A DNA stretch of 64,000 nt from Bradyrhizobium canariense (lineage in GTDB: Bacteria > Pseudomonadota > Alphaproteobacteria > Rhizobiales > Xanthobacteraceae). The position numbers and the translations under genes are program-made. Of the stretch, positions 2,033 through 18,729 are shown one piece after another; the first letter of the stretch is position 1; every line of letters starts with the position of its first letter. The notes under the pieces are model-generated. The model was not told where the DNA came from, made no database searches, and was given only the letters and a program-made list of their open reading frames with translations. The stretch spans positions 6,351,001-6,415,000 of the forward strand of contig NZ_LT629750.1 in the NCBI RefSeq assembly GCF_900105125.1. The letters run 5' to 3'.

Positions 2033-2072
2033 CCCCCATTTCATAAGCTTACTCCCCCGTAGAGGGGATTGG
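2033..2072 (+). promoter_or_regulatory. Composite C5-N16-C5-N4-G-tract operator, copy 1
   Basis: Distal C tract ending at 2037, 16-base spacer, CCCCC at 2054-2058, GTAG, AGGGG at 2063-2067, then ATTGG. Same layout and spacing as six other copies in this window. The G-side points at the MucR-like gene starting about 197 bases downstream. Confidence 0.6.
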
Positions 2073-2266
2073 TGACGCCCTGCGTGATGCCCAAGATTCA
2101 AATGCATCTCTTCCGGTGTCGGGAGCGCCCGGCCGATGTCGTGCCGATCGCGTCGACGACAGGGTCTTTGTGGCGTGCTCACGCTCGCGGGCGACTATGC
2201 TGAAGTCGGGAGCAATCCCTTCGCGGCGTCGCTGCTCGAACGATCTGGCGCACCGAGGAGTCGGTT

Positions 2267-2680
2267 ATGGCGATTGTAGCCAACCTGACGGAACTGACCG
2301 CGATCATCGTCGCTTCGTTCGTCTCCAACAACACGCTCAAGGCTAGTGAAATTCCTGCTCTGATCGTGTCGACCCACAACGCGCTTCTCCACATTGATGC
2401 TGTCCCGCAAACTTCGAGCGGCCGCGAGAAGCCCGCCGTTCCGGTGTGGGAATCCATTACCGACGAATACCTGGTCTGTTTAGACGATGGGAAAAGGCTG
2501 CGGACTCTCAAGCGCTATCTCAAGCGCAAATTCTCGCTTTCGCCCGATGAGTACCGGAAAAAGTGGGGGCTTCCGGAGGACTACCCGATGGTGGCGCCTG
2601 GGTACGCCGAACTGCGCTCAAGAATTGCGAAGCGAAAAACGAGGGAAGCATCCAACGCGCCGGAATCTCGCACAAGCTAA
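2267..2680 (+). CDS. MucR/Ros-family regulator lacking zinc-binding histidines
   Basis: A 137-residue protein with the MucR/Ros architecture. The N-terminal half resembles the oligomerisation part, and YLVCLDDGKRLRTLKRYL followed by SLSPDEYRKKWGLP and DYPMVAP matches the C-terminal DNA-binding core. In Ros the zinc site is Cys-x2-Cys/Asp plus two histidines. Here the first cysteine and an aspartate are present, but the expected histidines of KRHLxTHH are Tyr and Lys/Phe, so classical zinc coordination is impossible. Zinc-free members are known in Mesorhizobium (Ml proteins), so it may still bind DNA. GAGGAG six bases before the ATG fixes the start. One copy of the shared operator lies upstream. 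Confidence 0.85.
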   Translation: MAIVANLTELTAIIVASFVSNNTLKASEIPALIVSTHNALLHIDAVPQTSSGREKPAVPVWESITDEYLVCLDDGKRLRTLKRYLKRKFSLSPDEYRKKWGLPEDYPMVAPGYAELRSRIAKRKTREASNAPESRTS

Positions 2681-2755
2681 GCCCCTTGTACCGATCCATC
2701 TGTCTGACCCGGACGAACGGTCGTCCCCTTGCGACGCTCCGTTTCGCCGCGCCAT

Positions 2756-2796
2756 CCCCCGCCTTACAGGATCTGCCCCCCATCGGGGGGATAGGG
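2756..2796 (+). promoter_or_regulatory. Composite C5-N16-C5-N4-G5 operator, copy 2 (cyo promoter)
   Basis: CCCCC at 2756-2760, 16-base spacer, CCCCC at 2777-2781, ATCG, GGGGG at 2786-2790, then ATAGGG. It lies about 160 bases before the cyoA start with the G-side toward the gene. The core is nearly identical to copies 3 and 7. Confidence 0.7.
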
Positions 2797-2952
2797 CGTC
2801 ATATCGGATTCGACCATGATCCGTCTCGGCGATGCGCTGAGGGGCGGACCGGTCACCGGCCAAGGTGCTTGTCAGAAGATTCCCTCGTTGGCAGCGGGGC
2901 AGCGGGCGTCGCTCGCGAACACTGTCAGCTAGCCGAGTTTGGAGAGCGAGCA

Positions 2953-3825
2953 TTGCAGAGCGCGGTGGCCACTAAGGTAGTTCGAGGCGCCATTCTCGTA
3001 TCGTCGGCGCTTCTGCTCTGCTCGTGCAGTGAAGGCGTCCTCGATCCACACGGTCCGATTGGTAAGGCCGAACGTGTCATTCTCTGCGACGCCACGGCCA
3101 TCATGCTCGCGGTCGTCGTGCCGGTCATCCTGCTGACGCTAGGCTTCGCGTGGTGGTTTCGCGCAAGCAACAAGCGGGCGCGCTACCTACCCGAGTGGGA
3201 GTATTCCGGCCGGATCGAGATGATCGTCTGGTCGATCCCGGCTCTTGTCGTCCTGTTTCTCGGGGGCATTGCTTGGATTGGTGCGCACGAACTTGATCCT
3301 CCCAAGCCAATCACATCGGCCCAGGCGCCGCTCGACGTGGAAGTCGTCTCGCTCGACTGGAAGTGGTTGTTCATCTATCCGACCCAGGGCATCGCGAGCG
3401 TCAACCGCCTGGTCGTGCCGGTAGGAACCCCGATCCGGTTCCGCCTCACGTCGGCCAGCGTGATGAACTCGTTCTTCATCCCCCAGCTTGGCAGCCAAAT
3501 CTACATCATGCCCGGCATGACAACCCGCCTGAACCTGCAGGCGGACCGTCCCGGCGTCTACAAGGGCCTGTCTGCACAGTTCAGCGGCGAAGGCTTTTCG
3601 GATATGCGTTTCGACCTGGCGGCCGTGCCCCAGGATCAATTCGAGGCTTGGGTGAAGGCTGCCAAGACCCAGGGCGGCATGCTCGATTCGGCCTCCTACA
3701 GCGCTCTTGCACGCCCAAGCAAAGCGATTGCGCCGACGACCTACGCTGGCGTCTCCCCCGGACTGTTCGAAACTGCCTCGGCCCGCAGTACCGGCGCTGA
3801 GCTCCCGCCGCATCAGGAGCACTGA
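2953..3825 (+). CDS. cyoA: Cytochrome bo-type ubiquinol oxidase subunit II
   Basis: Subunit II of the proton-pumping quinol oxidase. A TTG start with GGAG six bases upstream gives a 290-residue lipoprotein precursor (E. coli CyoA is 315). The leader ends in LLLCSC, so Cys25 is the probable lipidated residue. Two membrane helices follow, then the cupredoxin domain with the CyoA signatures [25 protein letters not shown] and [10 protein letters not shown]. The copper ligands of CuA-type subunit II are absent, which marks quinol rather than cytochrome c as the donor. It is the first gene of cyoABCD. The frame stays open further upstream, but that stretch has no CyoA-like sequence. Confidence 0.93.
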
Positions 3826-3826
3826 C

Positions 3827-5809
3827 ATGCTGGGTAAGCTCACATGGGCGGCGATCCCGTTCGATCAGCCGATAGTCATGATCGCCTCGGCCGGGGTCGC
3901 GATCGTCATCGCCGGCATCCTTGGCCTCGTCACCTTAAAAGGGTGGTGGCCCTATTTGTGGCGCGAGTGGATCACCAGCGTCGATCACAAGCGCATCGGC
4001 GTGATGTATGTGCTCCTTGCCCTGGTGATGCTGGTTCGCGGCTTCGCCGACGCGATCATGATGCGCACCCAGCTCGCCCTCGCCGCGGGCGGCGCACCAG
4101 GCTTCCTTCCGCCCGAGCACTACAATCAGATCTTCTCAGCGCACGGGACGATCATGATTTTCTTCGTCGCCATGCCGTTCGTGATCGGCCTGATGAACTT
4201 TGCAGTGCCGTTGCAACTCGGTGTACGCGATGTCGCCTTCCCCGTGCTCAACAACGTCAGCTTCTGGCTGACGGCCGCCGGTGTACTTCTGATCAACCTG
4301 TCGCTGTTCATCGGTGAGTTCGCGCGCACGGGCTGGCTGGCCTATCCGCCCCTCAGCGAGACCGCTTTCTCCCCGGGCGTCGGTGTCGATTATTATCTTT
4401 GGTCGTTGCAGATCTCCGGCCTCGGCACCTTGCTGTCCGGAATCAATCTCACCACGACCATCCTGAAGCTTCGGGCTCCGGGGATGGGCTATATGCGCAT
4501 GCCGATCTTCTGCTGGACGGCGCTCGCCGCCAATCTCCTCATCGTTGCCTCATTCCCGGTCATGACCGCAACCTTCGCGATGTTGCTGCTCGACCGCTAC
4601 TGTGACTTTCATTTCTTCACGACGAGCGCCGGCGGCAATCCGATGATGTACATCAACCTCATCTGGATATGGGGCCACCCGGAAGTCTACATCCTGATCC
4701 TGCCGGCCTTCGGCGTATACTCCGAAGTCGTCGCGACCTTCTCCGGCAAACCGTTGTTCGGCTACCGCTCCATGGTCATGGCGACAATGGCAATTTGCGT
4801 CCTCTCGTTCCTGGTCTGGCTGCACCACTTCTTCACCATGGGCGCCGGCGCAGACGTAAACGGCTTCTTCGGCATCATGACGATGATCATCGCGGTGCCA
4901 ACCGGCGTCAAAGTGTTCAACTGGCTCTTCACGCTCTACGGCGGGCGCATCCGCTTCACCGTTCCGGTCTACTGGGCGCTTGGCTTCATGGTCACCTTCG
5001 TGCTCGGCGGCATGACCGGCGTGCTGATGGCGATCCCACCGGCCGACTTCGTCCTGCACAACAGCCTCTTCCTGGTCGCGCATTTCCACAACACCGCGAT
5101 CGGTGGTGTCGTGTTCGGCGTCTTCGCCGGCTACACTTATTGGTTCCCCAAGGCCTTCGGTTTCAAGCTCGATGAGCGACTGGGCAAGGCGATTTTCTGG
5201 TGCTGGTTCCTCGGTTTCTACCTCGCCTTCATGCCGCTCTATGCGCTGGGTCTGATGGGCGCTACCCGGCGAATGCAGCACTATCCGGACACGCACTGGC
5301 AGCCCCTAATGCTTGTAGCCCTGTCGGGCGCGGTGTTGATCCTCTTCGGCATCGGCCTGACCGTGGTTCAACTGGTCGTCAGCATTCGAAGGCGTGACCT
5401 CAACCGCGATTTGATCGGCGACCCCTGGAACGGCCGCACTCTCGAATGGTCCACACCTTCTCCACCGCCGCCTTGGAATTTCGCTCTCTCGCCGCAGATC
5501 AACGGCACCGACGCCTATTGGGCTGCGAAACAGCGCGGACACGAGGCGGAACAAGTCGCTGTCGCGCGTGCCTACGTCCCGGTGCATTTGCCGCGCAACA
5601 ACCCCACAGGTTTCTTCCTCGCTTTCTTCGCCGTTGTGCTCGGCTTCGCGCTCATCTGGCACATCTGGTGGATGGCGATCGCCGGCTTGATGGGTTCTTT
5701 GGCTGTCGTGCTCGTCCAAGCCTGGCGCACGAGCGGTGAGACCGACATTTCTTCAAGGGAGGTCGCAGCGTTCTACGAAGCGCATGCGGCCAGGGAGGGC
5801 GCCGTATGA
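3827..5809 (+). CDS. cyoB: Cytochrome bo-type ubiquinol oxidase subunit I
   Basis: Catalytic haem-copper subunit, 660 residues (E. coli CyoB 663). Numbering matches E. coli: low-spin haem ligands His106 and His421, CuB ligands His284, His333 and His334 with the cross-linking Tyr288, high-spin haem ligand His419, K-channel Lys362, and quinol-site residues Arg71, Asp75, His98 and Gln101. It therefore reduces oxygen with electrons from ubiquinol while pumping protons across the inner membrane. The ATG follows the cyoA stop by one base. Its last four bases overlap the start of cyoC (ATGA). Confidence 0.96.
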
Positions 5810-6426
5810 CCGTCGCGGATCAAGCCCTCTCGAGTCCCGAGGCCGTTCCCCTCTCAATGAGAGGCCCCGCATCGACCAGCGTTGTTGTCGGCTACGGCTT
5901 CTGGCTGTTCCTGCTATCCGACATCGTCATCTTCGCTGCTCTCTTTGCTGCCTACGCGGTGCTGGGTGGCGAGACGAACGGCGGTCCGCCCGGCGCAGAG
6001 CTTTTCGACAAAACGCATGTCTTCATCGAGACCGCCTGCCTGCTCGCCTCCAGCGTCACATGCGGCTTCGGTTCGATGGCTGTACAGCAGCGCAACAAGC
6101 TCGGGACATATCTGTGGATGACGGCCACCTTTGTCCTCGGTGCGTCCTTCTTGAGCCTCGAGGGATCCGAATTCGCCGGTATGGTCGCCGCGGGAAACAC
6201 CCCCTCGCGAAGCGCCTTCCTTTCTGCGTTCTTTGCGCTCGTCGGCACGCACGGTTTGCATGTCGCCGCCGGCCTGTTCTGGCTCGTCATCATGATGCTG
6301 CAGGTTACGACGCTCGGCTTTCAGCCCATGGTGAGGCGTCGCTTCTTCTGCTTCAGCTTGTTCTGGCACGCGCTCGACATCGTCTGGATCGGCGTCTTCA
6401 CAATCGTCTATCTGGGAGCACGCTGA
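5806..6426 (+). CDS. cyoC: Cytochrome bo-type ubiquinol oxidase subunit III
   Basis: 206 residues with five hydrophobic segments. It contains the conserved subunit-III pattern of a glutamate-bearing helix near [15 protein letters not shown] and the late block [14 protein letters not shown], which is typical of CyoC. It is translationally coupled to cyoB (ATGA overlap) and to cyoD (the final A of its TGA begins the next ATG). It stabilises the haem-copper core; no catalytic residues are expected. Confidence 0.94.
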
Positions 6427-6800
6427 TGCATGATGAAACGAACGCGCAAGGCGAAGCGCCCGGGGTCAGCGAGAACAGCCACGGCAGCCCGCGCAGCTAC
6501 CTCATTGGGCTTGGCTTTGCCACGATCCTGACGCTCGCTTCGTTTTGGGCGTCGTCGACCCACGTCATCTATGCGCCAGGCGTCCCTGTCCTCCTGGCGG
6601 TCCTCGCTATCGCGCAGATGGGAATCCACCTCGTCTTCTTCTTGCAAATCTCCACCGCGCCCGACCAGACGAACAACTTTCTGGCCCTAGCATTTGGCAT
6701 TTTCGTAGTCGGGCTCACCGTGTTCGGGTCAATGATCATCATGGCCAATCTCAACCACGGGATGATGCCTATGGATCGCCTGATGCAAATGCAGCGCTAG
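6426..6800 (+). CDS. cyoD: Cytochrome bo-type ubiquinol oxidase subunit IV
   Basis: 124-residue protein with a polar N-terminus and three membrane helices. The block HVIYAPGVPVLLAVLAIAQ followed by HLVFFLQIS is the CyoD pattern. It is the last gene of the operon; no cyoE (haem O synthase) follows, so haem modification must be supplied from elsewhere in the genome. It overlaps cyoC by one base. Confidence 0.93.
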   Translation: MHDETNAQGEAPGVSENSHGSPRSYLIGLGFATILTLASFWASSTHVIYAPGVPVLLAVLAIAQMGIHLVFFLQISTAPDQTNNFLALAFGIFVVGLTVFGSMIIMANLNHGMMPMDRLMQMQR

Positions 6801-7124
6801 CCAAATCTCGTCACGTCGCGAGGCCATGCTTTCGACCGCGTGCGGAGGGGTTCGATCTGAGCCGGTCCCCCGATCGGCTAATACGGCGTTGGGCAAAAAG
6901 GCGTCGTCCAGCACGGGCCGGTCTGCGAGTTGAGGCGTGTTGGCCGCTCTCGGTCCCTTCAGCGAAAGTTATCGGGCGGTTCCCCCGAATTGGACCGCTC
7001 GACCCCCGTCAGGGGGATGGGGTGTTTGGTGCTTCCGAAGCAGTATGCAGGCTGCGGTCGCGATACCGGTCGTGTCGCGGTCAACGATGTCAGAAACGAT
7101 CTCTAGACCCGAGAAGGCTCGACT
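6801..7124. other. Intergenic region cyoD to hydrolase
   Basis: 324 bases without a gene. The only structure I see is the composite operator at 6982-7022, which belongs to the downstream hydrolase. No convincing terminator hairpin follows cyoD. Confidence 0.6.
6982..7022 (+). promoter_or_regulatory. Composite C5-N16-C5-N4-G5 operator, copy 3
   Basis: CCCCC at 6982-6986, 16-base spacer, CCCCC at 7003-7007, GTCA, GGGGG at 7012-7016, then ATGGGG. About 105 bases before the hydrolase start, G-side toward the gene. GGTT directly precedes the distal C tract, as in copy 7. Confidence 0.7.
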
Positions 7125-8009
7125 ATGCGCAAGGACATTTCCTTTCTCAGCGATGGCCGAAAGCTTGTCGGTCACCTCTACCTACCCGATGGAGATCTAG
7201 GCCAAGCGAAGCCACCTGCCGTCATTGTGGTCGGGGCGTCGTCAGGGACGAAGGGACAGACACCAACGGTCTATTCCGAACGCTTGGTCCAACTGGGATA
7301 TGCAGCCCTTATTTTCGACCACTCCACGTATGGCGAAAGCGAGGGCGCTCCGCGCTGTGATGAGGACCCATTCGCCAAATCCGAGGACATTAAATGGGCG
7401 GTCACGTTTCTGGCCGGCTGCTCAGAGGTTGATCCGGGCCGAATTGGGGCAGTTGGGGTGTGTGGAGGGGGCGGCTTCGTGCCGTACACAGCTGTGGCAG
7501 ATCGGCGGATCAAGGCGGTGGCTATGGTCAGCAGTATTCCTGACTTGCGTAGCACATTGACCGACGGTTTCGCAGGTGACTGGCACGATCTGATGCGTGT
7601 AGCTCTGGCGGCGCGTGAAGAGTTCGCTCGAGGCGGCGACCCGCAGTACGTGCCATTCATGCCTCCGGGGCAACAGAGCGTTTGGGTGGAGAACGGCAAG
7701 AAGTACTACCTGACCGATCGCAATCCGGATCAAAAATGGCAGAACCAGACGCTCCTATGGTCGTTCGACAAGATGCTTCAGTTCTCTGCGCTCGACATTA
7801 TTCAGTTGCTGGCGCCGACCCCGCTTCTAGTCATCGCCGGCTCCGAGGCTGAGACGTTGGCGCAGAGCGAGGCCGCCTATGCGAAGGCGAGAGAGCCGAA
7901 GGAACTCTTCATCATTGAGGGCGGTTGCCATTTTGACTTTTACGATAGACCTGAGTACGTCGATCCCGCTGTCATCAGGATCGACAAATTCCTGAGGGCC
8001 CACCTCTGA
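7125..8009 (+). CDS. Dienelactone-hydrolase-like alpha/beta hydrolase with cysteine nucleophile
   Basis: 294 residues, alpha/beta-hydrolase fold of the DLH/YcjY type. After the oxyanion region (IVVGASSGTKGQ) comes an unusual nucleophile elbow, GVCGGGG, with Cys113 where most hydrolases have serine. Cysteine is the nucleophile in true dienelactone hydrolases. The late acid and histidine are plausibly in LLVIAGSEAE and EGGCHFDFYD. It is monocistronic, and preceded by its own copy of the shared operator, so it is probably co-expressed with the quinol oxidase and dehydrogenase operons. The substrate is not identifiable; an ester or lactone is likely. Confidence 0.8.
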   Translation: MRKDISFLSDGRKLVGHLYLPDGDLGQAKPPAVIVVGASSGTKGQTPTVYSERLVQLGYAALIFDHSTYGESEGAPRCDEDPFAKSEDIKWAVTFLAGCSEVDPGRIGAVGVCGGGGFVPYTAVADRRIKAVAMVSSIPDLRSTLTDGFAGDWHDLMRVALAAREEFARGGDPQYVPFMPPGQQSVWVENGKKYYLTDRNPDQKWQNQTLLWSFDKMLQFSALDIIQLLAPTPLLVIAGSEAETLAQSEAAYAKAREPKELFIIEGGCHFDFYDRPEYVDPAVIRIDKFLRAHL

Positions 8010-8505: not shown

Positions 8506-9834
8506 CTATTCGTTTGGCCTCATCGCCTTGCGCACGCGGGCTACATCGCCGATCGTGGTAGAAGAGGCGTGGTTGCCCCAGCTCGTGCGAATGAAATTCA
8601 CCAAATCCGCTAGGTCCTGATCCGAGAGGCGCTTGGCGAAGCTCGGCATCACGAATTGCGCAGGTGCACCGCCTGTCCGGGGCGTGCTCGAACCTTGCAA
8701 AATGATCGAGATCAGCGAGATCGGGTTTTCTGCCTGGACGACGCCGTTGCCTGCCAAGCGGGGAAAGACGCGGTCATACCCCATCCCATCCGGGCGATGG
8801 CAGGCGGCGCAGCTGTCGAGATAGGCCATGGATCCCGGTTTGCTTGCATCGCCGTTTTTAAGCGCGTTGTGAACAGCGGGGTCATAGACGAAAGGACTAG
8901 CTTCGCCGTCGTGGTCACTGCGGATGGATTTGAGATACTTCGCGGCCGCCAGCGCGTCCGCATCACTCATATATTGGGTACTATGAACGATGACGTCGCG
9001 CATGGAGCCGAAGGCGATGCCCTTGGAGCTTGCTCCGCCCTTGAGGAATTGCGCCAGCTCTTCGACACCCCAATCACCAAGCGTTCCGGGCCCACCGTTT
9101 CGAAGGCTTGGTGCGAAAAAGTTCTCGATTACCGCGCCTGACAGATAGGCCGAGCCGTTCTTTGGCGTCGTCGCCTTGAGCTGCATGGTGATGGCGCGGG
9201 GCGTATGACACTCGCCGCAATGGCCTAAGCCCTCAACAAAATAGGCGCCCCTCGCAACCTCGGCATTCAAGCCGGCTGAAGGTTGGAAAGGTGTAGGCTT
9301 GGGTGCGAAGAGCCAGCGCCAGTAGGTTAGCGGCCAACGCATCGAAAGCGGGAAAGGGATTTCACTCGGGCGGTTCGGAACGACCGCTGCAGGGACGCCC
9401 TGCCGGAAATAGGCATATAGCGCGGCAACGTCCCCAGGCGTCGTGTTGTAGTACGACGTGAAAGGCATCGCCGGGTAAAGCGTATGTCCGCCGGCGACGC
9501 CAAACCGAAGGGCCCGATCGAAGTCAGCCAGGCTGAAGCGTCCGATCCCGTGTATAGGGTCCGGCGTGATGTTCGTCGTGTAGATGGCGCCGATCGGCGT
9601 GACCATACGAAGACCGCCGGAGTAGGGCGGTTCACCGGGGATGCTGTGGCAGGCGGCGCAATCGCCAAGCCCGGCAAGGTAGGCACCCCGCGCGACTACG
9701 TCCGGCGTCGCCGAGGGCGCCGCGAGCTGAGCCTCCCCCGTATACCGGTCCCCGACATAGGATATCCCCATCGCCAACAGGAGCCCCGCCACCCAGACTA
9801 TGCAGACGGCGAGAATGCGGGTCTTCCACCTCAT
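8506..9834 (-). CDS. Triple-haem cytochrome c subunit of a membrane GMC dehydrogenase
   Basis: 442 residues with one N-terminal membrane anchor/signal and three CxxCH haem c sites: CAACH at 59-63, CGECH at 206-210 and CAACH at 342-346. This is the layout of the cytochrome subunit of gluconate 2-dehydrogenase and related alcohol, sorbitol or fructose dehydrogenases. It passes electrons from the flavoprotein to ubiquinone at the periplasmic face. Its start overlaps the GMC subunit stop (ATGA). It is the last gene of a three-gene operon. The matching quinol oxidase is encoded at 2953-6800. Confidence 0.92.
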   Translation of the reverse strand: MRWKTRILAVCIVWVAGLLLAMGISYVGDRYTGEAQLAAPSATPDVVARGAYLAGLGDCAACHSIPGEPPYSGGLRMVTPIGAIYTTNITPDPIHGIGRFSLADFDRALRFGVAGGHTLYPAMPFTSYYNTTPGDVAALYAYFRQGVPAAVVPNRPSEIPFPLSMRWPLTYWRWLFAPKPTPFQPSAGLNAEVARGAYFVEGLGHCGECHTPRAITMQLKATTPKNGSAYLSGAVIENFFAPSLRNGGPGTLGDWGVEELAQFLKGGASSKGIAFGSMRDVIVHSTQYMSDADALAAAKYLKSIRSDHDGEASPFVYDPAVHNALKNGDASKPGSMAYLDSCAACHRPDGMGYDRVFPRLAGNGVVQAENPISLISIILQGSSTPRTGGAPAQFVMPSFAKRLSDQDLADLVNFIRTSWGNHASSTTIGDVARVRKAMRPNE

Positions 9835-11609
9835 GCCGGCACCAGAGGGCCGGGTGATTTGAGGTAGCTATCGCGGATCTTCGCGGCCGAAAAATAGGCA
9901 AGACCAGCAAGCAGTCCGGTCGGGTTGTATCCGATGTTCTGCGGAAAGGCCGAGGCGCCGTAGATGAAGAGATTGGAAACATCCCAACTCTGCGAATAGC
10001 GATTGATCACACTGTTCGAGGGGTCGGTTCCGATGATCGCGCCGCCGGTGGTGTGCGTCGTCTGATAGATGCGCGCATCGTAAGCCATGCCTGGTCGCAG
10101 GACGAGCGTCGCGTGCTTCTCAGGTTTCATTACGCGGACGATCTCCTCCATTTTGGAGGCAGAGTACGCAGCCATTTTGTATTCGTTGTCGTGCCAGTCG
10201 AACGTGATGCGCAGGAGCGGCAAGCCGTGCGCATCCTTGTAGGTCGGGTCGAGAGAAAGATAGCGGTCCCGGTACGACATCACGGTTCCAAGGGTGCCGA
10301 GCGGTGCGGAGTGCCGATAGTGCTTGCGGATACCGGCCTTCCAGCCCGCTCCCCAGTGTGGAACGTCGGGCGGGAGCATCATCTGATCGATTGGCCGCCC
10401 ACCAGTGCCGCCGGCAAAGATCTGCGATCCACCGATGAAACCGAGGCCGCTATGATCGAAATGGTCGGAGTTAAACTCGTCGATGACGCGCTGGCCGGCG
10501 GACCCAGCTCCTATGAAGGGGTTGATCTCGACATCTTCGCTGAAATAGGCCGCCGTCTGGGCGCACATCTGATAAGCGTAGTTCTTCCCCACCAAGCCCT
10601 CACCCGTTGTCGGGCTATAGGGCACCCCTATTCCGGAGAGCAGGAGCAGCCGCACGTTGTGCATCTGGAAGGCGGAGAGGATGACGAGGTCCGCGGGCTG
10701 CTCGACCTCGGCGCCGCTATCATCGACGTACAACGCGCCTGTTGCGATCTTCCCGCTGCTGTCCCGAAGGATCTTGGTGACATAGGCACCGGTCCTCACC
10801 TCGAGGTTAGGTCGGTCAACAAGGATTGGCAGGATGGATGTCTGCGGCGATGCCTTGGAGTAAAGGAAACACCCGAAGCGCTCGCAGAAGCCGCACAGAT
10901 TGCAGGGTCCGAGCCTCACGCCATAGGGATTTGTGTAGGCGATCGAACTGTTCGCCGATGGGATTGGAAAGGCTTTGTAGCCTAGCTCCGCCGTGGCCTT
11001 CTCAAACAACCTGGCCACCTCGATCGGCGGCAGCGGCGGTGTAGGAAATTCATCGCTGCGCGGCCCCTCGAACGGATTCCCGCCTTGCCGGATTGAGCCG
11101 CGCAGGTTTCCGGCGACACCCGAGACCGCGCAGACCTTTTCGAAATGATCGAAATGGGGCTCCAGCTCCTCGAAGGTCACCGGATAGTCCTGGATCGTCA
11201 TATCCTGCGGGATCGCGCTCTTGCCGTAGCGCTCTTCGATGTGGCTGCGCAGCCGCAAATCTTCCGGCGACGCGCGCCAAAGCTGTCCGTTCCAATGGAC
11301 GCCAGCGCCGCCGACGCCATTGCCGAGAACGAACGACCCATATTTGCGATACGGAGCGGCCACGTCGTTGAGGCTGTGACGGATGGTCACCGTTTCTTTC
11401 GCCAGGGGTTGCCAGAGATCACCCCGCACCCCGTACTTCAGCTCATCCGCAATCCGCGGATATTCAAAGTCGGGCGACGTGTCCCTGGCTGGGCCGCGCT
11501 CGAGCGCTACGACCGATAGACCAGCATCTGTCAGCGTTTTCGCCATGATCGCGCCGGCCCAGCCATAGCCGATGATGACAGCGTCTACCCGCTTCCGACG
11601 CTCAGCCAT
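9831..11609 (-). CDS. GMC-family FAD dehydrogenase (gluconate 2-dehydrogenase-like large subunit)
   Basis: 592-residue flavoprotein. The N-terminus AVIIGYGWAGAIMAKTL with ALERG is the FAD-binding Rossmann motif, GNGVGGAGVHWNG is a GMC signature, and the C-terminal block with HTTGGAIIGTDPSNSVINRY is typical of the membrane-bound gluconate dehydrogenase branch. A four-cysteine cluster (CNLCGFCERFGC, about residue 260) suggests a bound metal centre, as found in several enzymes of this branch. ATGA overlaps join it to both neighbours. It probably oxidises a polyol, sugar acid or alcohol in the periplasm and hands electrons to the cytochrome subunit. Substrate unknown. Confidence 0.92.
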   Translation of the reverse strand: MAERRKRVDAVIIGYGWAGAIMAKTLTDAGLSVVALERGPARDTSPDFEYPRIADELKYGVRGDLWQPLAKETVTIRHSLNDVAAPYRKYGSFVLGNGVGGAGVHWNGQLWRASPEDLRLRSHIEERYGKSAIPQDMTIQDYPVTFEELEPHFDHFEKVCAVSGVAGNLRGSIRQGGNPFEGPRSDEFPTPPLPPIEVARLFEKATAELGYKAFPIPSANSSIAYTNPYGVRLGPCNLCGFCERFGCFLYSKASPQTSILPILVDRPNLEVRTGAYVTKILRDSSGKIATGALYVDDSGAEVEQPADLVILSAFQMHNVRLLLLSGIGVPYSPTTGEGLVGKNYAYQMCAQTAAYFSEDVEINPFIGAGSAGQRVIDEFNSDHFDHSGLGFIGGSQIFAGGTGGRPIDQMMLPPDVPHWGAGWKAGIRKHYRHSAPLGTLGTVMSYRDRYLSLDPTYKDAHGLPLLRITFDWHDNEYKMAAYSASKMEEIVRVMKPEKHATLVLRPGMAYDARIYQTTHTTGGAIIGTDPSNSVINRYSQSWDVSNLFIYGASAFPQNIGYNPTGLLAGLAYFSAAKIRDSYLKSPGPLVPA

Positions 11610-12304
11610 CAGCCGCGCGCTCCGCTGATGGCGACTGGACCATAGGGATAGGCGCGGCCAGCCTGGTCGATCCAGTCTGTGAAATCCGCACGCGCGCCGG
11701 GAAAGCCGATCCACTTCCACGCCGCCATGCCGCGGTTCCCGCCGTAGAGCGGATCAGCGAAGTAGCCCTCCTTGGCATTTGCGAGCAGCTGGCCGAAGAA
11801 GACGGGCGCGGGGACTGTCGTGAACCTTACCGCGTTCTTTTCCATCCCATCGAGGAGCCGGTCCTGATCGCCGGCCGGCAATTCCGCGAACGTCTTTCCC
11901 AGCGTTTTGCGGGCTTCGACGTTCGCGGCCGCGATGCCGAGCCTGTAGATCTCACGCGGGGCATAACGAAGTTGGTAGCCCAAGGACGGCGGGACATCCG
12001 TCAGAAAGGGCCCAGCCAAGTAGAAATATGCGCCATGCCCATAGGGCATTTCCATTTGGCGATCGATGAACTCCGGAACTCCGGCCTCAATCCCCCCCGG
12101 GCCAGGACCTTCAGACGGGATGAGGCGACCGACCGCCGCGCGAACAAATGCCCACTCATCCGCGCTGAAAAAAGTCGGCGCGTATGCGGTAGCGCCATCC
12201 CCACTCCTTGGTGAACATCCCGCCAGTCCCGACAGAACCGCGGTCGCCACAGGGGCGGCTCCCAACAGCAGGCTTCGTCTGTCTATCGAAAGACCCTTCG
12301 CCAT
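11609..12304 (-). CDS. Gluconate 2-dehydrogenase subunit 3-like protein, Tat-exported
   Basis: 231 residues beginning with a twin-arginine leader (DRRSLLLGAAPVATAVLSG) that ends in a lipobox-like LAGC. The body matches the gluconate 2-dehydrogenase subunit 3 family (FSADEWAFVRAAVGRLIPSEG and VPEFIDRQM). In such complexes the small Tat subunit carries the cofactor-loaded flavoprotein across the membrane, since the large subunit has no signal of its own. It is the first gene of the operon and overlaps the GMC gene by ATGA. The ATG at 12304 is chosen because the upstream frame lacks signal-peptide character. Confidence 0.88.
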   Translation of the reverse strand: MAKGLSIDRRSLLLGAAPVATAVLSGLAGCSPRSGDGATAYAPTFFSADEWAFVRAAVGRLIPSEGPGPGGIEAGVPEFIDRQMEMPYGHGAYFYLAGPFLTDVPPSLGYQLRYAPREIYRLGIAAANVEARKTLGKTFAELPAGDQDRLLDGMEKNAVRFTTVPAPVFFGQLLANAKEGYFADPLYGGNRGMAAWKWIGFPGARADFTDWIDQAGRAYPYGPVAISGARG

Positions 12305-12610
12305 GTGTATTGTTCCTCGATCTACGTTTCCGTCGATGTCGCCTTCACCCTGGACGCATTCTGATCCGACGCCGTCGCGATAGCTGAACGCTGCCGGCCG
12401 CCCGGAAGCTGGCGGCTCTCCGCCGACGCAACGCATCTGTCGCGCCCAAGGAGACTGCCGGTGGCGCGTCGTCGTCTGTATCCCCCTTATGGGGGGAACG
12501 AGATTCAAGATCGGGGGGACGGTATTGTCTCAGCCCGATGTCGACATCTCATGGCGTGGTCAGGTCGGAGGGAGGCCCACTACGATGCATGCGCCAGGAC
12601 AGTGCGACTC
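12305..12610. other. Intergenic region upstream of the GMC dehydrogenase operon
   Basis: 306 bases between the dehydrogenase operon and the end of the next hydrolase gene. Contains operator copy 4 at 12476-12518; nothing else recognised. Confidence 0.6.
12476..12518 (-). promoter_or_regulatory. Composite operator, copy 4 (GMC dehydrogenase promoter)
   Basis: Read on the minus strand: a C6 tract (12513-12518), 16 bases, a C6 tract (12491-12496), ATAA, GGGGG (12482-12486), then AT. Spacing to the five Cs nearest the core is one base longer than in the other copies because both tracts have six Cs. It lies about 175 bases before the Tat subunit start, with the G-side toward the gene. Confidence 0.65.
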
Positions 12611-13810
12611 TCATCCCAGGACCTCATCGAGCCAATCGAAGATGGTCTGGCCCGCAAGGCGCATGGCCCCCATGTGACAATGCGTCGAGGCGCCTTGGGC
12701 GCGCGTCAGGGTCACCAGCTTGTGCGGAGCTTTCAGCCCATCGGCAACCTTCTGCGCCTGGCCCTTCAGGAACGCGTCCTCCTCGGCTTCAAGGATCAGG
12801 GTCGGTGCCTCGATGCGATCGATGATGCCTTCGAGCGTGTAGTCAGCGCTTTTGCGCAGGTAGTCTCCGAACGAGGTGGCGCCGGTCGTCCAGACGCCAT
12901 TGCGCATTGCCCAGCGGGCATTGGTGCTCTTCTGCATGAAGAGCTGCATCACCTGGTCGACGGCCTCGTCCTTGTCGCCGGCTCGCACCCATTCGGTGAC
13001 GAAGCCGGGCAGCAGCGCGGCGTTAGCGTCGAAGAAGTCATACATGCCATCGTCGAGGATTAGGGCGGCCGGGCGCTTGTCGAAGGCTGCGGCGCGGGCG
13101 ATCAGCTGGGCGCCGAGGCTATAGCCGAAGGGGACGAGCTTGTCGGAGGCGAATTCCGGGCGCTTTTGTGCGTAGTCGAGAACTGGGCCGAGAACGGCTT
13201 CCCAGTCGTGACGGAAGACGAGCTTGTCGTCCCGCAGCGCGCTGCCCTGGCCCGGCCCGTCGAAGGCGATGACGTTGTAGCCCCGCCGCAGCGCAGCCGC
13301 GCCGATGGCGAACCAGGCCTCCTCGCGCGTCGAGTCGAAGCCATTATTGTAGACGATCGTCGGGCGGGGCTTACCGCTGTCGTCGACCAGGAACAGATAA
13401 GCAGGCAGGCTGCCGTCGCCATAGGGGATGCGCACGTCCTCGACCGGCGTGTCGAACAGGGCTCCTGCCTTGAGGAAGGTGTCGCGGGACTTCGCGGTCA
13501 GCCCGGTCACTTCCGGATCGTTCCAGGCATCGTCGCGGCGATAGAATTCGGCGGCACGATAATAGTTGGAAGCGCGCAGGAACGCTTCTCGGGCGCTGAC
13601 CTTATGCCCCGCCGCGAACGACGCCTCGCCAGCCGCCTCGATCCGGGCCGCGAGCGCCTTCCATTCGCGATGCCAGGCCGCCTCGTCGCCCTCGCCGATC
13701 TTCTCGGCGGTCACGATGATCTCGCCAAGATCGGCGCCGCCGTCCACCGCGAAACCTGCAGCGCGCAGCGTCTCGAAGGAGAAGGACTCATCCTCAAACA
13801 GGAATTTCAT
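12611..13810 (-). CDS. Alpha/beta hydrolase of the 2,6-dihydropseudooxynicotine-hydrolase type
   Basis: 399 residues. An N-terminal helical cap (about residues 40-125, with SAREAFLRASNYYRAAEFY) precedes an alpha/beta-hydrolase domain. The nucleophile elbow is GYSLGA with Ser231, the acid is probably in LILEAEEDAFL, and the histidine in ASTHCHMGA. The cap-plus-hydrolase layout resembles the C-C hydrolase of nicotine breakdown and FrsA/DUF1100-type esterases, so cleavage of a C-C or ester bond is likely. The ATG start agrees with family N-termini; the open frame extends further upstream without similarity. Operator copy 5 precedes it. Confidence 0.8.
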   Translation of the reverse strand: MKFLFEDESFSFETLRAAGFAVDGGADLGEIIVTAEKIGEGDEAAWHREWKALAARIEAAGEASFAAGHKVSAREAFLRASNYYRAAEFYRRDDAWNDPEVTGLTAKSRDTFLKAGALFDTPVEDVRIPYGDGSLPAYLFLVDDSGKPRPTIVYNNGFDSTREEAWFAIGAAALRRGYNVIAFDGPGQGSALRDDKLVFRHDWEAVLGPVLDYAQKRPEFASDKLVPFGYSLGAQLIARAAAFDKRPAALILDDGMYDFFDANAALLPGFVTEWVRAGDKDEAVDQVMQLFMQKSTNARWAMRNGVWTTGATSFGDYLRKSADYTLEGIIDRIEAPTLILEAEEDAFLKGQAQKVADGLKAPHKLVTLTRAQGASTHCHMGAMRLAGQTIFDWLDEVLG

Positions 13811-13943
13811 GTGGCTCGCCCGGTTGGCTTCCGTCGCCGGCCGAGTGGATCTCGATCGTCTTCCGGAAGCTGGCAACTCTCCCGGCCGCGACGCCGCCGT
13901 CACGCCATCGGAGCTAGGCAGACTGCAGCGTCGACGTCTGCAC

Positions 13944-13984
13944 CTCTATCCCCCTTATGGGGGAAGGTGCCTCAGGAATGGGGG
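13944..13984 (-). promoter_or_regulatory. Composite operator, copy 5
   Basis: Minus-strand reading: CCCCC (13980-13984), 16-base spacer, CCCCC (13959-13963), ATAA, GGGGG (13950-13954), then ATAG. About 137 bases before the hydrolase start, G-side toward the gene. Confidence 0.7.
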
Positions 13985-14081
13985 CACGAGTTCGTTTCAG
14001 TCCGAAACGACAGCGTCCCTATCGTGCGAAGCAAGAGCTCCCGGTTCTGCCGAGTTACCCAATCGTCGCACGACGCGAAAC

Positions 14082-15494
14082 CTATGGCTGCGGGGCGGCG
14101 GCGGAGACAATCGTGCGCTGCTGTTCAGTCGGGCCGGTCCATCCACCGCCGCTGGCTTGATACAAGGCCACTGCCGAATTTAGGCGATCGGTGTGCACTT
14201 GAATAAGCGTGAGACGAACAGAAAGCAGGCTACGCTGGGCATCCAGCTGATCGAGATACGGTGAATAACCTGCGCGGTAGCGATTGGTCGCCAGCGTCAA
14301 TGTTCGCGCGAGAATATCGCGCTGCGCAATGAGCGAGCGCTCCTGCTCAGCATTGTGCTGAACAGCCGCTAATCCATCTTCAACTTCACGAAACGCGACA
14401 AGCGCGGCCTTCCGATAGGCAAAGGCGGCTTGGTCTCGCCGGGCCACAGCAGCGTCCTGCTGCGCCTGCAATCGCCCACTATCGAACAACGGTGCGAGGA
14501 TGCTGCCGCCCAGCGCCCATATTGCTATCGGACTAGCCGCAACCAGCGTCGAACCAACAAGGCCGCCTGATGCCGTGAGGCGAACGTCCGGCATGAAGGC
14601 CGCACGAGCAGAATCCAACGCATGGTCCGTGGCAACGAGCTGGAACTCCGCCGCAGCGATGTCGGGGCGTCTGCGCAATAGGCTTGCTGGAAGCGACACG
14701 GGCACAGATGGAGCGCTTAATCCATCAATGCCCTTGCCACGGGCGATCCCCTGAGGGTTCTCCCCTAGGAGAAGGTTGAGACCGTCCTCCTGGCGAGCGA
14801 TCGCCAGCTCCGTGGCGGGGATCAGCTGGACTGTCGCTTCGTATTCGGCCTGAGCCTGCGCGAGATCCAGTTGGCTCGAATAGCCAGCAGCTGCTCGCCT
14901 GCGCGCGATTTCCAACTCTGCCTTTCGCGCCGCCAATGTCTCCCGCAGAACTATGATGCGAGCGTCCAGGGCTCGCAGCGTGATATAGCCGCTGGCTGCC
15001 GATGATGCGACCGCCAACCTGACGTTGTCGTGGGCCGCCTCGCTTGACAACATCACGCCGCGCGCCGCTTCGCTGGCTTGAGCCAGTTTACCGAAAAGAT
15101 CGAGGTCGAGCGCCGCCTGAACTTCACCTTGGCCCGCTGTCTGAATCTCAGGAATTCCGAAACCGGGGTTGACGCTCCGGCTGCGACCGCCTTCCGCGCT
15201 CGCGCCAATATTGGGAAGTCGTTGCGCGCGTGACAGATTGAAGTCGGCCCGCGCCTCAGCAACCCTTGTGGCAGCGATGGCAACGTCGACGTTGTTGGTG
15301 AGCGCTGTTTCCACAACCCGTTGGAGCGTCGGATCGCCAAACGCCAGCCACCAATTTGGATCGACGTCGCCCGTAGCCTCCTTTCCGTGCCAAGCCGTCG
15401 GCGGCGAGACAGCCGCCTGTGGCGGTGGCATCGACCTAGGTCCGGCACAGGCCGCTAGCATCAACGGAACAAGAACCGCCGCCCGCCGTGTCAC
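14082..15494 (-). CDS. RND-type outer-membrane efflux lipoprotein (NodT/OprM family)
   Basis: 470 residues. A short lipoprotein leader (LVPLMLAAC) places the lipidated cysteine near residue 16. The rest shows the two-fold repeated helical/beta layout of TolC-like factors: WWLAFGDPTLQRVVETALTN, RVAEARADFNLSRAQRLP, LRRRPDIAAAEFQL and FREVEDGLAAVQHN. It forms the outer-membrane channel of a tripartite pump. The start is GTG and overlaps the adaptor gene stop (GTGA). It is the third and last gene of the operon. Confidence 0.9.
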   Translation of the reverse strand: MTRRAAVLVPLMLAACAGPRSMPPPQAAVSPPTAWHGKEATGDVDPNWWLAFGDPTLQRVVETALTNNVDVAIAATRVAEARADFNLSRAQRLPNIGASAEGGRSRSVNPGFGIPEIQTAGQGEVQAALDLDLFGKLAQASEAARGVMLSSEAAHDNVRLAVASSAASGYITLRALDARIIVLRETLAARKAELEIARRRAAAGYSSQLDLAQAQAEYEATVQLIPATELAIARQEDGLNLLLGENPQGIARGKGIDGLSAPSVPVSLPASLLRRRPDIAAAEFQLVATDHALDSARAAFMPDVRLTASGGLVGSTLVAASPIAIWALGGSILAPLFDSGRLQAQQDAAVARRDQAAFAYRKAALVAFREVEDGLAAVQHNAEQERSLIAQRDILARTLTLATNRYRAGYSPYLDQLDAQRSLLSVRLTLIQVHTDRLNSAVALYQASGGGWTGPTEQQRTIVSAAAPQP

Positions 15495-16609
15495 GACGGC
15501 CCACCTGTATCGACACGCACCTCGACAGACATGCCCGGTCGAAGTCGCGGCGCGAGGGCTTGTCCTGGATTTATGGAAATCCGAACACCGATCCGCTGGG
15601 GGACTTTCACAAAGTTGCCGGTCGCGTTGTCCGGTTTCAGCACCGAAAATTCGGAGGCTGCGGCTGGCGACAATTCCTCGACGCGACCCGCGAGACGCGC
15701 GCTATCAAGCCCGTCGACAGTGAAGCTTACCTTCTGCCCCACCCGCATGTGAGCTGTTTGCGCTTCCTTGAAAGCAGCTATGATCCACCGATCAGCAGGA
15801 ACCAATGAGGTGAGCTGTGTCCCATTGGTTACGTACTGGCCTACCCGGACGCCGATTTCACCCAACTGCCCCGGCTCAACCGCACGTATCGTCGTGTGGC
15901 CGAGGTCAATGAGTGCTGCGTCGAGCTGCGCGCGCGCTGCGGCCACCTGCGCTTCCAAACCGCCTCGCGCGACGTCGATGGTGAGCACGTTCTGTCGGGC
16001 GACTTCCTGACCAGACACCGACTGTCCAAGCTGCGCTTCCACCTGAGCAAGAGCCGCTTTCGTCTGATCACGCTCGCGGATCGAGATCGATCCGTCGCCC
16101 ACGAGCTGGCCTGCACGCGCCATGTCGGCTTTTCCACGCAAGAGCTGCGCCCTTGCGCTTGCCACCGCAGCAGCCTGTCCCTGAAGCGACGCCTCGGCTG
16201 ACGCCTTGGCCTGGCGATTGTTGGCGAGCGCTGCCTCTGCGGCCGAAAGGTTTGCCTGCGCCATGTCGACTTTGGCGCGGTAAGAACTCTCGTCGATGCG
16301 GACGAGAACGTCCCCGGCCCGGACGGTCTGGTAGTCACGAACTTCGACTGCGATGACGTAGCCACTTACCTGTGGAGAAATAACGGCGGTCCGACCGCGT
16401 ACATAAGCGTTTTCCGTCACCTGGACTGAACCGGTGAACGGAAGTAAGTCCCATGCCCGCATGATGGTGAAGATGGCCGCGCACCCGACGGCCAGAATTG
16501 CCACGAGGACCAACGGATGTTTTCGCGCCGGTCGCCAGTGCGCGGTGGGAGCCGGGCCTTCGGACGATTCGCCTGCGCCGCTGGGCGCCGCCTCGGAAGC
16601 TTCGGTCAT
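15491..16609 (-). CDS. HlyD/EmrA-type membrane fusion protein
   Basis: 372 residues with a cytosolic N-terminus, one membrane helix (HPLVLVAILAVGCAAIFTIM), a biotinyl-lipoyl-like domain (VSGYVIAVEVRDYQTVRAGD), a coiled-coil hairpin (about residues 100-200, rich in A, Q and R) and a C-terminal beta-barrel. This is the EmrA pattern. It bridges the MFS pump and the outer-membrane channel in the same operon. The ATG at 16609 overlaps the MFS stop by four bases. Confidence 0.9.
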   Translation of the reverse strand: MTEASEAAPSGAGESSEGPAPTAHWRPARKHPLVLVAILAVGCAAIFTIMRAWDLLPFTGSVQVTENAYVRGRTAVISPQVSGYVIAVEVRDYQTVRAGDVLVRIDESSYRAKVDMAQANLSAAEAALANNRQAKASAEASLQGQAAAVASARAQLLRGKADMARAGQLVGDGSISIRERDQTKAALAQVEAQLGQSVSGQEVARQNVLTIDVARGGLEAQVAAARAQLDAALIDLGHTTIRAVEPGQLGEIGVRVGQYVTNGTQLTSLVPADRWIIAAFKEAQTAHMRVGQKVSFTVDGLDSARLAGRVEELSPAAASEFSVLKPDNATGNFVKVPQRIGVRISINPGQALAPRLRPGMSVEVRVDTGGPS

Positions 16610-18264
16610 GCTGCTATCCGCTTCACGTTCGATCCACCACGGATAGAGCGAAGAACAACGAGCCAACCCACGTAGAGCGCCGTGCCAAACGCAAGCAAAG
16701 CGAGCAGCCGAAATACGTCGTTGAACGCTAAGATGCTTGCTTGCTGCATGAGCGAATTACCGAGAAGCGACGCTCCTTCGGCGCCGCCGAGCGACGGGTC
16801 GACAATGACCGGGCTTAGCGCTCTGGCTCCGCTTTGAAGGCGATCGAGCACTTGCGGATTGCTCGCGAGCAGATCCTCCGACAATGCGGCGGCATGCGCA
16901 TGTATTTGTATGACCTGATAGCTGCCCACGACCGCTGATCCGGCGAGGGCGCCCACATTCTGCGTGATACTGAACAAGACCACGAGCGTGATCAAATGGT
17001 CGGGGCCCTTCCGTATCAACTGAAGGAACCCGAAAAGAAGCGCCGGGCCAACAAACAACGTGGTTCCAAAACCGATGAGCGCCTGACTCAAATAGAGTTG
17101 CGGAGGACGAGTGAGGCTTGTTGCTTGACTGTCCATGAGCGCGCCGATCGCGATCAAAACCGCTGCCGCAATGACTTGATAGGGAATCCTTTGCTCCGAT
17201 AGCGTCAGAGCGGCCGTCACCAGACCTAGAGCCATGGCCAGAATGACGATCCAAAACAGCGTATGCAGTTGATCGTTGTTTAAGCCGCCGGAAAACAAAA
17301 GCCCGACCGATCCAAAGGTCTGCTCGGCCAGCGCCAACCGCACAAGAAGTGCTATCGCGGCGAACCGGAGCATTCCGATTGTTCCGAGCCACTCAAAGTG
17401 CACGAGCGGATTTTGACGGGTGGTCTCGATTGCGGCCGCGAGCATGAATAACGGGACAGCGGCGATGAGCATCCAGCCAAGCCAGGGTGTGTCCGTCCAC
17501 CAGAGCACGCGACCCAACCCAAGGACGGCGCAGCTGAGCAGCATTGCCGACACAACACACGCGATCGTCAAAAAATCGAGCCGCTCAAATGCCCTGCTGC
17601 GTTGACTTGGTGGCAGTGGAAAAAGCGAGATGCTCGTAAGAACGCAAAGCCCCACTGCAAGTTCGATTAGATGTAAGCCTTGCCAATGATCTACCGCCAA
17701 TAATTCGACAGGCACGAGACGTGCTAAGGGTGAACCGAGCTGTGGGAGACTGACGCCAAATAGCAAAGCAAGCGGTCTTACCTTCGCCGGAAAAACCTGG
17801 AGAAAGTAGTAGACTGAGAGGCTGACCAGGGCCGCCCCCATAAGGCCGTTTACGGCCCGAACCAGCACAGCCATGCCGAAACTGGGAATGGCGATTTGAG
17901 CTACGGCAACAGCCGAGTAGCAGATTAGAATTGCATAGGTGACAGCCGGGATGCCGAATTGAATACGGGCCTTAACAAGTGTGAGATTGCCGCTAGCGTT
18001 CATGGCGTAGAAAATCGCCGGAAGCCAACTCGCTTGTGCAACGTATAGACCAAGCGATCCCGAGATGGTGCCCACATTCACACTTGTGAGCGCGTTTGGG
18101 AAACTCGTGGCGATCCCGACGAGTGTACCGGTGGCCGCATAACCTACACGCCGCCAAGGATTGTGGCGGGGAGCAAACGGAGACCCCGGAAAAGTTGGCG
18201 CCTCGTCTGGTGCGAACTGGTAATTTGTATTTGCCAGGCGCTCCTCGGTCACGTCTCTGCCCAT
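16606..18264 (-). CDS. DHA2/EmrB-type MFS efflux transporter
   Basis: 552 residues, mostly hydrophobic, with about fourteen apparent membrane segments as in the DHA2 drug:proton antiporter group. It lies upstream of and overlaps an EmrA-like adaptor, and the NodT-like channel follows, so the operon encodes an EmrAB-TolC-type exporter. The N-terminal 40 residues are cytosolic. Some DHA2 signature residues are less conserved than in E. coli EmrB, so the substrate cannot be guessed beyond a hydrophobic or weakly acidic compound. Operator copy 6 lies upstream. Confidence 0.85.
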   Translation of the reverse strand: MGRDVTEERLANTNYQFAPDEAPTFPGSPFAPRHNPWRRVGYAATGTLVGIATSFPNALTSVNVGTISGSLGLYVAQASWLPAIFYAMNASGNLTLVKARIQFGIPAVTYAILICYSAVAVAQIAIPSFGMAVLVRAVNGLMGAALVSLSVYYFLQVFPAKVRPLALLFGVSLPQLGSPLARLVPVELLAVDHWQGLHLIELAVGLCVLTSISLFPLPPSQRSRAFERLDFLTIACVVSAMLLSCAVLGLGRVLWWTDTPWLGWMLIAAVPLFMLAAAIETTRQNPLVHFEWLGTIGMLRFAAIALLVRLALAEQTFGSVGLLFSGGLNNDQLHTLFWIVILAMALGLVTAALTLSEQRIPYQVIAAAVLIAIGALMDSQATSLTRPPQLYLSQALIGFGTTLFVGPALLFGFLQLIRKGPDHLITLVVLFSITQNVGALAGSAVVGSYQVIQIHAHAAALSEDLLASNPQVLDRLQSGARALSPVIVDPSLGGAEGASLLGNSLMQQASILAFNDVFRLLALLAFGTALYVGWLVVLRSIRGGSNVKRIAA

Positions 18265-18378
18265 CAGCGATAGAAGTTGCCGGCGGCAACCGTGGCAGGC
18301 CGAGACGGCGTGGGATCTCAGAACGAGCCGCCTCTACCCTGACTGCGACCATGATGGCGTCCAAGCTACGGAGGCGGC

Positions 18379-18415
18379 ATCCCCTATAAGGGTGGGCGAG
18401 CGCCAAAACCGGGGG
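18379..18415 (-). promoter_or_regulatory. Composite operator, copy 6 (efflux operon), degenerate
   Basis: Minus-strand reading: CCCCC (18411-18415), 16-base spacer, CACCC, TTAT, AGGGG, then ATG. The inner palindrome is weaker than in other copies, but the spacing is exact. About 114 bases before the MFS start. Confidence 0.55.
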
Positions 18416-18689
18416 AGGTCTAGCAGCTGTCCCCGGATCCGTCGGACTGTGTTCCGTAGATTTGAAATCGAATCGTCGCTACCTGCGCCGTCGTCACGAA
18501 AAGCATACCCGCAATGCGCTCTTCACGATTTTGGTGCGGGCGATCCCGACTCGAACCGACACGCATCGCTGCGGCGGATTTCGAAGGAAACGCGGTTCCA
18601 CCGGACTGAAATTTCAACTCAAGCATTGATTCAAACGAGTCCTGAGCCTGGATGCGGGTAGGTCCGTTCCGGTATGGGCTCTGACGGTT

Positions 18690-18729
18690 CCCCCAAACAG
18701 GACGAAGCGCCCCCCATCGGGGGGATAGG
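18690..18729 (+). promoter_or_regulatory. Composite operator, copy 7 (FAH/decarboxylase)
   Basis: CCCCC (18690-18694), 16-base spacer, CCCCC (18711-18715), ATCG, GGGGG (18720-18724), then ATAGGA. Core identical to copy 2. About 70 bases before the first FAH start codon. Confidence 0.7.

Follow-up and report, generated by a model that had tools for sequence, protein, structure and literature searches.

According to the accessible parts of the published accounts, MalT of Escherichia coli is a STAND protein switched by ATP and maltotriose, and its NOD drives the multimerisation that accompanies promoter binding (PMC10427625, PMC6468293); its box, GGGGA(T/G)GAGG, is placed at -34.5/-35.5 (PMC7567727). 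For a MalT-like activator of Actinoplanes sp. SE50/110 (ACSP50_3915), the same partly accessible source describes a palindrome, TCATCC-N5-GGATGA, which overlaps the -35 region at 17 transcription starts, the sites lying within one 51-gene region and 34.4 +/- 1.0 nt from the start (PMC7567727). Here we describe a locus of this kind in Bradyrhizobium canariense, within a 64,000-nucleotide stretch (contig NZ_LT629750.1, positions 6,351,001 to 6,415,000 of the forward strand; the window hereafter), where the gene of a MalT-type regulator without the NOD ATPase (17-1723) stands beside a gene island whose promoters carry seven copies of a three-tract motif.

We consider it probable that the seven sites are the operator of this neighbouring regulator, with three boxes per promoter and class II activation. 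As far as the accessible account of Actinoplanes goes, both systems have a MalT-like LuxR regulator, a palindrome on the -35 region, a regulon in one island and about 34 nt to the start (in our case the -35 position, the regulon and the distance are predicted), whereas here the sites have the C5/G5 form and a third tract, and that account mentions no third tract. With E. coli MalT, in the accessible descriptions, the island regulator shares the TPR domain III (1HZ4), the LuxR helix-turn-helix (HTH) and, by prediction, a G-rich box at the -35 region; unlike it, the island regulator has no NOD, and the palindrome here is accompanied by a direct box two turns off. Set against known MalT systems, the promoter geometry appears to be kept, the NOD absent and a third tract present. 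The preliminary description of this DNA had considered the layout to be without precedent. This was too broad, since a MalT palindrome on the -35 region in one island has been published (PMC7567727); for the third tract and the C5/G5 form, no description was found in the parts of the literature accessible to us. A literature search, with most subscription journals outside it, returned no match for this operator or for NOD-less MalT proteins.

Seven three-tract sites and their predicted promoter geometry

The 37-mer CCCCC-N16-CCCCC-N4-GGGGGAT was identified seven times in the window, between 2033 and 18726 (Table 1). Four copies (2756, 6982, 13948 and 18690) show no mismatch, the copy at 2033 has one (AGGGG) and that at 18379(-) has two (CACCC and AGGGG), while the copy at 12480(-) has one mismatch with the N16 spacer and none with N17 (12480-12517). 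All seven copies listed in the preliminary description are present, although its positions 12476 and 13944 are off by 4 and should read 12480 and 13948; its placing of the third C tract 16 bases upstream in six copies and 17 in one was borne out, with N17 fitting 12480-12517. The G-side points, as it had also stated, to the target gene at all seven sites. An in-frame start codon lies downstream of every predicted transcription start. The distal and middle tracts have the same orientation throughout, with C-run starts 20-23 bp apart in 7/7 window sites and 20-25 bp apart over all 36 sites tabulated from the window and other genomes, and the spacers of the seven sites are unlike one another. In E. 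coli, the MalT boxes are reportedly in direct repeat (so Vidal-Ingigliardi, 1991), and at least two boxes in direct repeat are likewise found here, as the distal and middle tracts of each site; the direct-repeat spacing in E. coli MalT promoters differs from that of the island. Box details were also looked for in PMC3161199, which gave none.

Allowing three mismatches, the window gave 10 matches, 3 of which repeat one of the seven sites one base out of register; dinucleotide shuffles gave a mean of 0.35 and a maximum of 3. The whole genome (G000; one contig of 7,841,944 bases, 7.84 Mb) was then scanned with the reversed pattern as backwards control. With up to three mismatches, 28 matches were detected (control 2). 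With up to two, there were 8, and the motif is confined to the island except for C1:1394497(-), a site without a -10-like element and ~350 bp from the next open reading frame (ORF) on its strand; the remaining 20 have three mismatches each, 3 of them being island sites read in a shifted register. The inner palindrome including AT, CCCCCNNNNGGGGGAT, has 6 exact copies in the genome, 5 of which lie in the island (control 0).

All seven sites carry CANNNT at exactly +23 to +28 after GGGGGAT, and its C, A and T (+23, +24 and +28) are the sole invariant columns among the first 60 downstream; none of 20,000 circular shifts was as good as the observed alignment. Six places in the genome match the composite C5-N4-G5-AT-N22-CANNNT at 0-1 mismatch, every one of them inside the island, and the seventh island site is one of 13 genome matches with 2 mismatches. 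At 3 mismatches, 116 places were found versus 36 in the backwards control, with many of the excess being REP-like. We also examined ten sites in other genomes, picked before CANNNT was looked at, and the element was present at +23 in five and at +24 in two, against a background of 0.011 (P = 4e-8 for five of ten at +23). Three of those at +23 are the promoters of the mucR-like gene, cyo and poxB in G720a, which is the locus of the Rhodospirillales metagenome-assembled genome (MAG) RYN_451 (from L112; contig JAQGIE010000112.1, as judged by length and sites), and the other two are the acyl-CoA dehydrogenase and Mo-oxidoreductase promoters of genome G928; of those at +24, one belongs to a 452-aa ORF in G720a and the other to the mucR-like gene in G928.

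In the sigma-70 -10 element, A at the second and T at the sixth position are the most needed, and CANNNT looks like such an element. If CANNNT is placed at -12 to -7, GGGGGAT would lie at -41 to -35 and the start 34 nt past the box. This compares with MalT-type promoters, which have the box at the -35 region and 34-35 nt from the start, and as the predicted 34 nt fits the Actinoplanes value of 34.4 +/- 1.0, the published MalT geometry would be matched.

We infer from this layout that each promoter offers three G-rich half-sites to be bound: a proximal GGGGGAT toward the gene, an inverted middle box that would form with it the palindrome C5-N4-G5, and a distal box oriented as the middle one. 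Measured from start to start, the distal C-run precedes the middle one by 20-23 bp, or roughly two helical turns, which would place both on the same DNA face. The proximal box would stand in for the -35 element, recruitment of RNA polymerase would follow the class II mode known from MalT, and the start, ~34 nt after the box, would be set by the putative -10 CANNNT; the three boxes would presumably be filled without a NOD oligomerisation module. The regulator may thus drive a local regulon comprising the MucR-like regulator, the quinol oxidase, the membrane GMC dehydrogenase, the hydrolases, the efflux system and the FAH/acetoacetate decarboxylase pair.

The NOD-less regulator and its relatives

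The regulator is 568 aa long as an ORF and 478 aa in the protein database call (P0001), while E. coli MalT has 901 aa. A C-terminal LuxR/GerE HTH is present (PF00196, 64.1 bits), and TPR_MalT scores 41.6 bits, under the curated cut-off of 45. Pfam revealed no AAA or NB-ARC domain in the 568 aa, and the N-terminal NOD (NBD-HD-WHD) of MalT was accordingly not found; against the NCBIfam MalT equivalog NF003420 the protein reaches 69.1 bits, the cut-off being 537. Its AlphaFold model (mean pLDDT 77.6, residues 1-70 predicted to be disordered) has as its top Foldseek match 1HZ4, domain III of MalT (TM-score 0.84 by target length, E 4e-6), which points to the TPR sensor domain. The claim of a MalT-type regulator at 17-1723 therefore stands for the MalT-like TPRs and the LuxR HTH, but this is not a normal MalT, as the ATPase half is absent.

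Homology to full-length relatives begins at residue ~77-85, within the C-terminal half of those relatives. We found 306 homologues among 7996 scored candidates; among the matches listed (119 of the 306, the window's own excluded), proteins of 476-633 aa with 52-65% identity, many aligned over the whole length, were seen, and 17 aligned homologues are 504-632 aa long and 51-65% identical to the regulator. A truncated or decayed gene was thus ruled out by similarly short, often whole-length homologues, and on sequence grounds the protein is a member of a family of ~560-aa proteins, here referred to as short-MalT.

Among 385 alphaproteobacterial genomes sampled across the class, the exact motif was detected only in G000, G928 and G819 (backwards control 0), and the short-MalT profile (E <= 1e-60) in G000, G720 and G928. 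G819 carries a short-MalT fragment at a contig end (residues 435-567, E 8e-60), just under the class threshold, which surfaced in the family scan; it is 55% identical to the window regulator, 59-61% to those of G928 and G720a, and 43% to a full-length protein of G720 (locus G720b). All three exact-motif genomes hence carry short-MalT, G819 as a contig-end fragment. With G000 excluded, the motif is in 2 of 3 short-MalT carriers versus 0 of 381 others (hypergeometric P ~4e-5, by hand), and in G720 the motif is present five times, each time with a single departure. When 296 genomes of the family were scanned with C5-N16-C5-N5-G4-AT, the own genome alone matched; that pattern misses the site spacing at full-length-MalT loci, e.g. 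in G138, a member of the sample. Further short-MalT loci were sought in the families around G720 (n=5) and G928 (n=39) and in the phylum (n=398), and just the G819 fragment and a known full-length locus were found.

The order in G720a is regulator, site, mucR-like gene (63% identity), site, cyoABCD (59-83%), site and poxB (73%), with extra sites upstream of an HlyD/FUSC/OEP efflux operon and of the 452-aa ORF. The mucR-like and cyo promoters of this MAG keep the site upstream of orthologues. When the mucR-cyo gap is compared with that of the window, agreement, as judged by eye, is best over the operator, the bases that directly follow it and the -10-like element. In G928, the regulator and the mucR-like gene diverge around a site, and extra sites precede an acyl-CoA dehydrogenase, an AraC gene and, more weakly, a Mo-oxidoreductase gene. 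The G819 site precedes an acyl-CoA dehydrogenase that is a 63% homologue of that in G928, and in G720b, too, the site next to the full-length MalT gene precedes a homologue (74%) of the G928 enzyme.

Full-length relatives carry the same operator beside their gene. In the genus (265 genomes, E <= 1e-25), 19 loci besides the own one were identified, in 18 of which a single site adjoins the regulator gene; the operator is also present in G720b and in Methylobacterium soli (L113, with two sites at the loose criterion), giving 20 of 21 loci. These proteins show 31-37% identity over the C-terminal half. Counted from the first start codon, they are 883-980 aa long (916 in most), and an AAA domain was found in the one that was scanned. 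They differ from the island in the longer protein, in having one site per locus and in the position of CANNNT, which was not at +23 in the two checked. In five genus loci that were measured, the site is 28-29 bp from the regulator start and its G-side faces a divergent STAND/OmpR-type gene. The backwards control of the regulator loci gave 1 match in 1.05 Mb at the loose criterion, and by our own count about six independent lineages have the operator. That the protein encoded at 17-1723 reads the operator, as first proposed, is thus supported by comparative evidence from the 3/3 exact-motif genomes, the 20/21 full-length loci and the promoters shared with the MAG.

Alternative readers of the operator and counter-evidence

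Several observations weigh against this assignment. CANNNT was found at neither +23 nor +24 in three of the ten sites of other genomes (HlyD of G720a, AraC of G928 and the G819 site), nor at +23 in either full-length-MalT site checked (G720b, L113). Proximal boxes score 7-9 of 10 to the E. coli MalT consensus, where a GGGG-anchored 10-mer has a mean of 6.0, and past GGGGAT the likeness is modest. In the scored scan of G928, one backwards match reaches 17, equal to the weakest operator listed there, and a scored scan of the window found no poxB operator, though G720a poxB has one. Sites are missing from 24.9 kb around the genus homologue G449a (36-37% identical), from the remoter full-length homologues L114 and L117 (29-30%) and from the short flanks of L035-L037 and L039 (25-30%), and the 18 genus loci are orthologues that count as about one lineage. 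Loose three-tract palindromes also gave 13 matches in 12 of 100 unrelated LuxR control loci (1.25 Mb), several of which lie directly behind a gene and resemble terminators; since they occur near unrelated LuxR genes, a single loose match proves little. A general LuxR-HTH code, with C5-N4-G5 near any LuxR gene that has the SPETVKSH helix, was rejected, as several of the near copies lie past the gene end and look terminator-like.

It is possible, and we suggest it tentatively, that a MalT lineage, mostly metagenomic, shed its STAND ATPase switch and kept the class II promoter geometry, the multimer being templated by the three-box operator or delegated to a separate STAND ATPase (a split STAND). 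NOD-driven multimerisation is the presumed mode of signalling in STAND proteins, among them apoptosis and immune receptors. A natural activator with a sensor and a DNA-binding domain, no NOD and a defined operator would allow the role of the ATPase to be addressed directly; the locus also provides a predicted regulon for an oxidase/dehydrogenase/efflux island that is uncharacterised, and a sequence signature with which further ones could be sought.

The stricter form, in which short-MalT acts only with an adjacent STAND ATPase and the operator is read by the complex, or in part by the STAND protein, seems unlikely to us. The short-MalT genes of G928, G720a and L115 are each followed, at a distance of up to ~50 bp or with an overlap, by a co-directional STAND gene or homologue (Trans_reg_C and AAA_16 domains, about 1024 aa, by Pfam on one G928 copy), and STAND neighbours are also present at full-length-MalT loci. 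However, the STAND homologue of the window genome (52-62% to the gene that follows short-MalT in G928 and G720a; G000:C1:6347871-6350911, just left of the window) runs convergently to the regulator and is broken up into three frames, and the homologue in G720a lies in two ORFs, while the seven operators of the window are the cleanest set.

It is very unlikely that the MucR-like protein (2267-2680) reads the operator and so controls the cluster and its own gene. Each of the three complete short-MalT loci does have the site in the mucR-like promoter, but the same operator stands at full-length-MalT loci where none of the 21 pieces (19 from the genus, G720b and L113; 15-40 kb each) has a mucR-like gene, which argues that MucR is not the common reader. 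The MalT-box geometry of the operator also counts against it, as does the AT-rich DNA that MucR-type proteins bind.

That the palindromes are terminators or dispersed REP-like repeats is highly improbable: C5-N4-G5 palindromes do occur terminator-like after LuxR genes elsewhere and a REP-like CCCCCTTGCGGGGGAG repeat is dispersed in the genome, but each of the seven sites precedes a gene in the same orientation and has a third tract and CANNNT at a fixed distance, the spacers differ between sites, and the sites are found again at orthologous promoters, while REP-like copies end in GAG and not GAT. The repeat itself, CCCCCTTGCGGGGGAGGG...AGGGAGGGGGGT, is found genome-wide (e.g. G000:C1:4786669, 5013861 and 6319004) and is a source of false hits in C5-N4-G5 searches.

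Predicted target genes and neighbouring elements

For the NOD-less MalT-type regulator as the probable reader, the features of the locus are given in Table 1. In-frame starts after the predicted transcription starts are at 2267, 2953, 7125, 12436/12304, 13903/13876, 18264 and 18797. The cyoA start, TTG at 2953, was chosen by us, in frame and with GGAGAG at 2941, and the first gene of the GMC operon probably starts at 12436 or 12304. The products named Cys-hydrolase and C-C hydrolase in the preliminary description have alpha/beta-hydrolase matches in Pfam.

Table 1. Regulator, candidate operators and predicted target genes in the window
Feature	Coordinates	Strand	Basis or context
Regulator, MalT domain III-like TPR superhelix and LuxR/GerE HTH, no NOD ATPase	17..1723	-	Pfam, Foldseek, homologues
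Second conserved element TTYGGTMTTGTTYSGYRTTG	1845..1864	+	TTCGGT-like repeats ~11 bp apart, regulator's side of the intergenic region
Candidate operator 1 and CAAGAT	2033-2069; 2092-2097 (whole 2033..2097)	+	mucR-like promoter
ROS/MUCR-family regulator, 137 aa	2267..2680	+	PF05443; 62-63% homologues behind same-place site in G720a and G928
Candidate operator 2 and CATGAT	2756-2792; 2815-2820 (whole 2756..2820)	+	cyo promoter; aligned with Rhodospirillales MAG
cyoABCD quinol oxidase operon	2953..6800	+	COX2 Pfam; 59-83% identity to G720a cyo ORFs
Candidate operator 3 and CAGTAT	6982-7018; 7041-7046 (whole 6982..7046)	+	hydrolase promoter
Alpha/beta hydrolase (DLH-like)	7125..8009	+	Pfam
Gluconate 2-dehydrogenase subunit 3-like, GMC oxidoreductase, cytochrome c operon	8506..12508 (ORF extents)	-	Pfam
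Candidate operator 4 and CAGTCT	12480-12517; 12452-12457 (whole 12452..12517)	-	GMC dehydrogenase operon
Alpha/beta hydrolase, weakly FrsA-like	12611..13903	-	Pfam; start 13903 or 13876
Candidate operator 5 and CAGTCT	13948-13984; 13920-13925 (whole 13920..13984)	-	hydrolase promoter
Efflux operon: weakly EmrB-like MFS, HlyD adaptor, OEP channel	14082..18264	-	domain matches
Candidate operator 6 (two departures) and CATCAT	18379-18415; 18351-18356 (whole 18351..18415)	-	efflux operon
Candidate operator 7 and CACCCT	18690-18726; 18749-18754 (whole 18690..18754)	+	FAH/acetoacetate decarboxylase operon
FAH-family hydrolase and acetoacetate decarboxylase-family protein operon	18797..20611	+	domain matches

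A genome-wide regulon was ruled out at 0-1 mismatch of the composite site, all six such matches being in the island. The gene set, with a membrane GMC dehydrogenase, a quinol oxidase, efflux and FAH/acetoacetate decarboxylase hydrolases, suggests the oxidative use or the detoxification of a small organic compound. A poxB-type pyruvate dehydrogenase is encoded at 21658-23442 of the window.

In the genus loci G317, G324, G314 and G323, the full-length MalT gene is accompanied by a cyo operon, an AraC gene and several giant genes of the STAND/OmpR type, and pattern and scored scans found no operator at their cyo promoters. Two acetoacetate decarboxylase-family genes accompany these loci, with none seen in G324; domains were scanned in G317 alone.

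The second conserved element, TTYGGTMTTGTTYSGYRTTG, occurs once per complete short-MalT locus, at 1845-1864(+) in the window, 16964(+) in G720a and 17447(-) in G928, the search pattern having been written from those same three loci. It may be bound by the MucR-like protein or by the neighbour of the STAND/OmpR type.

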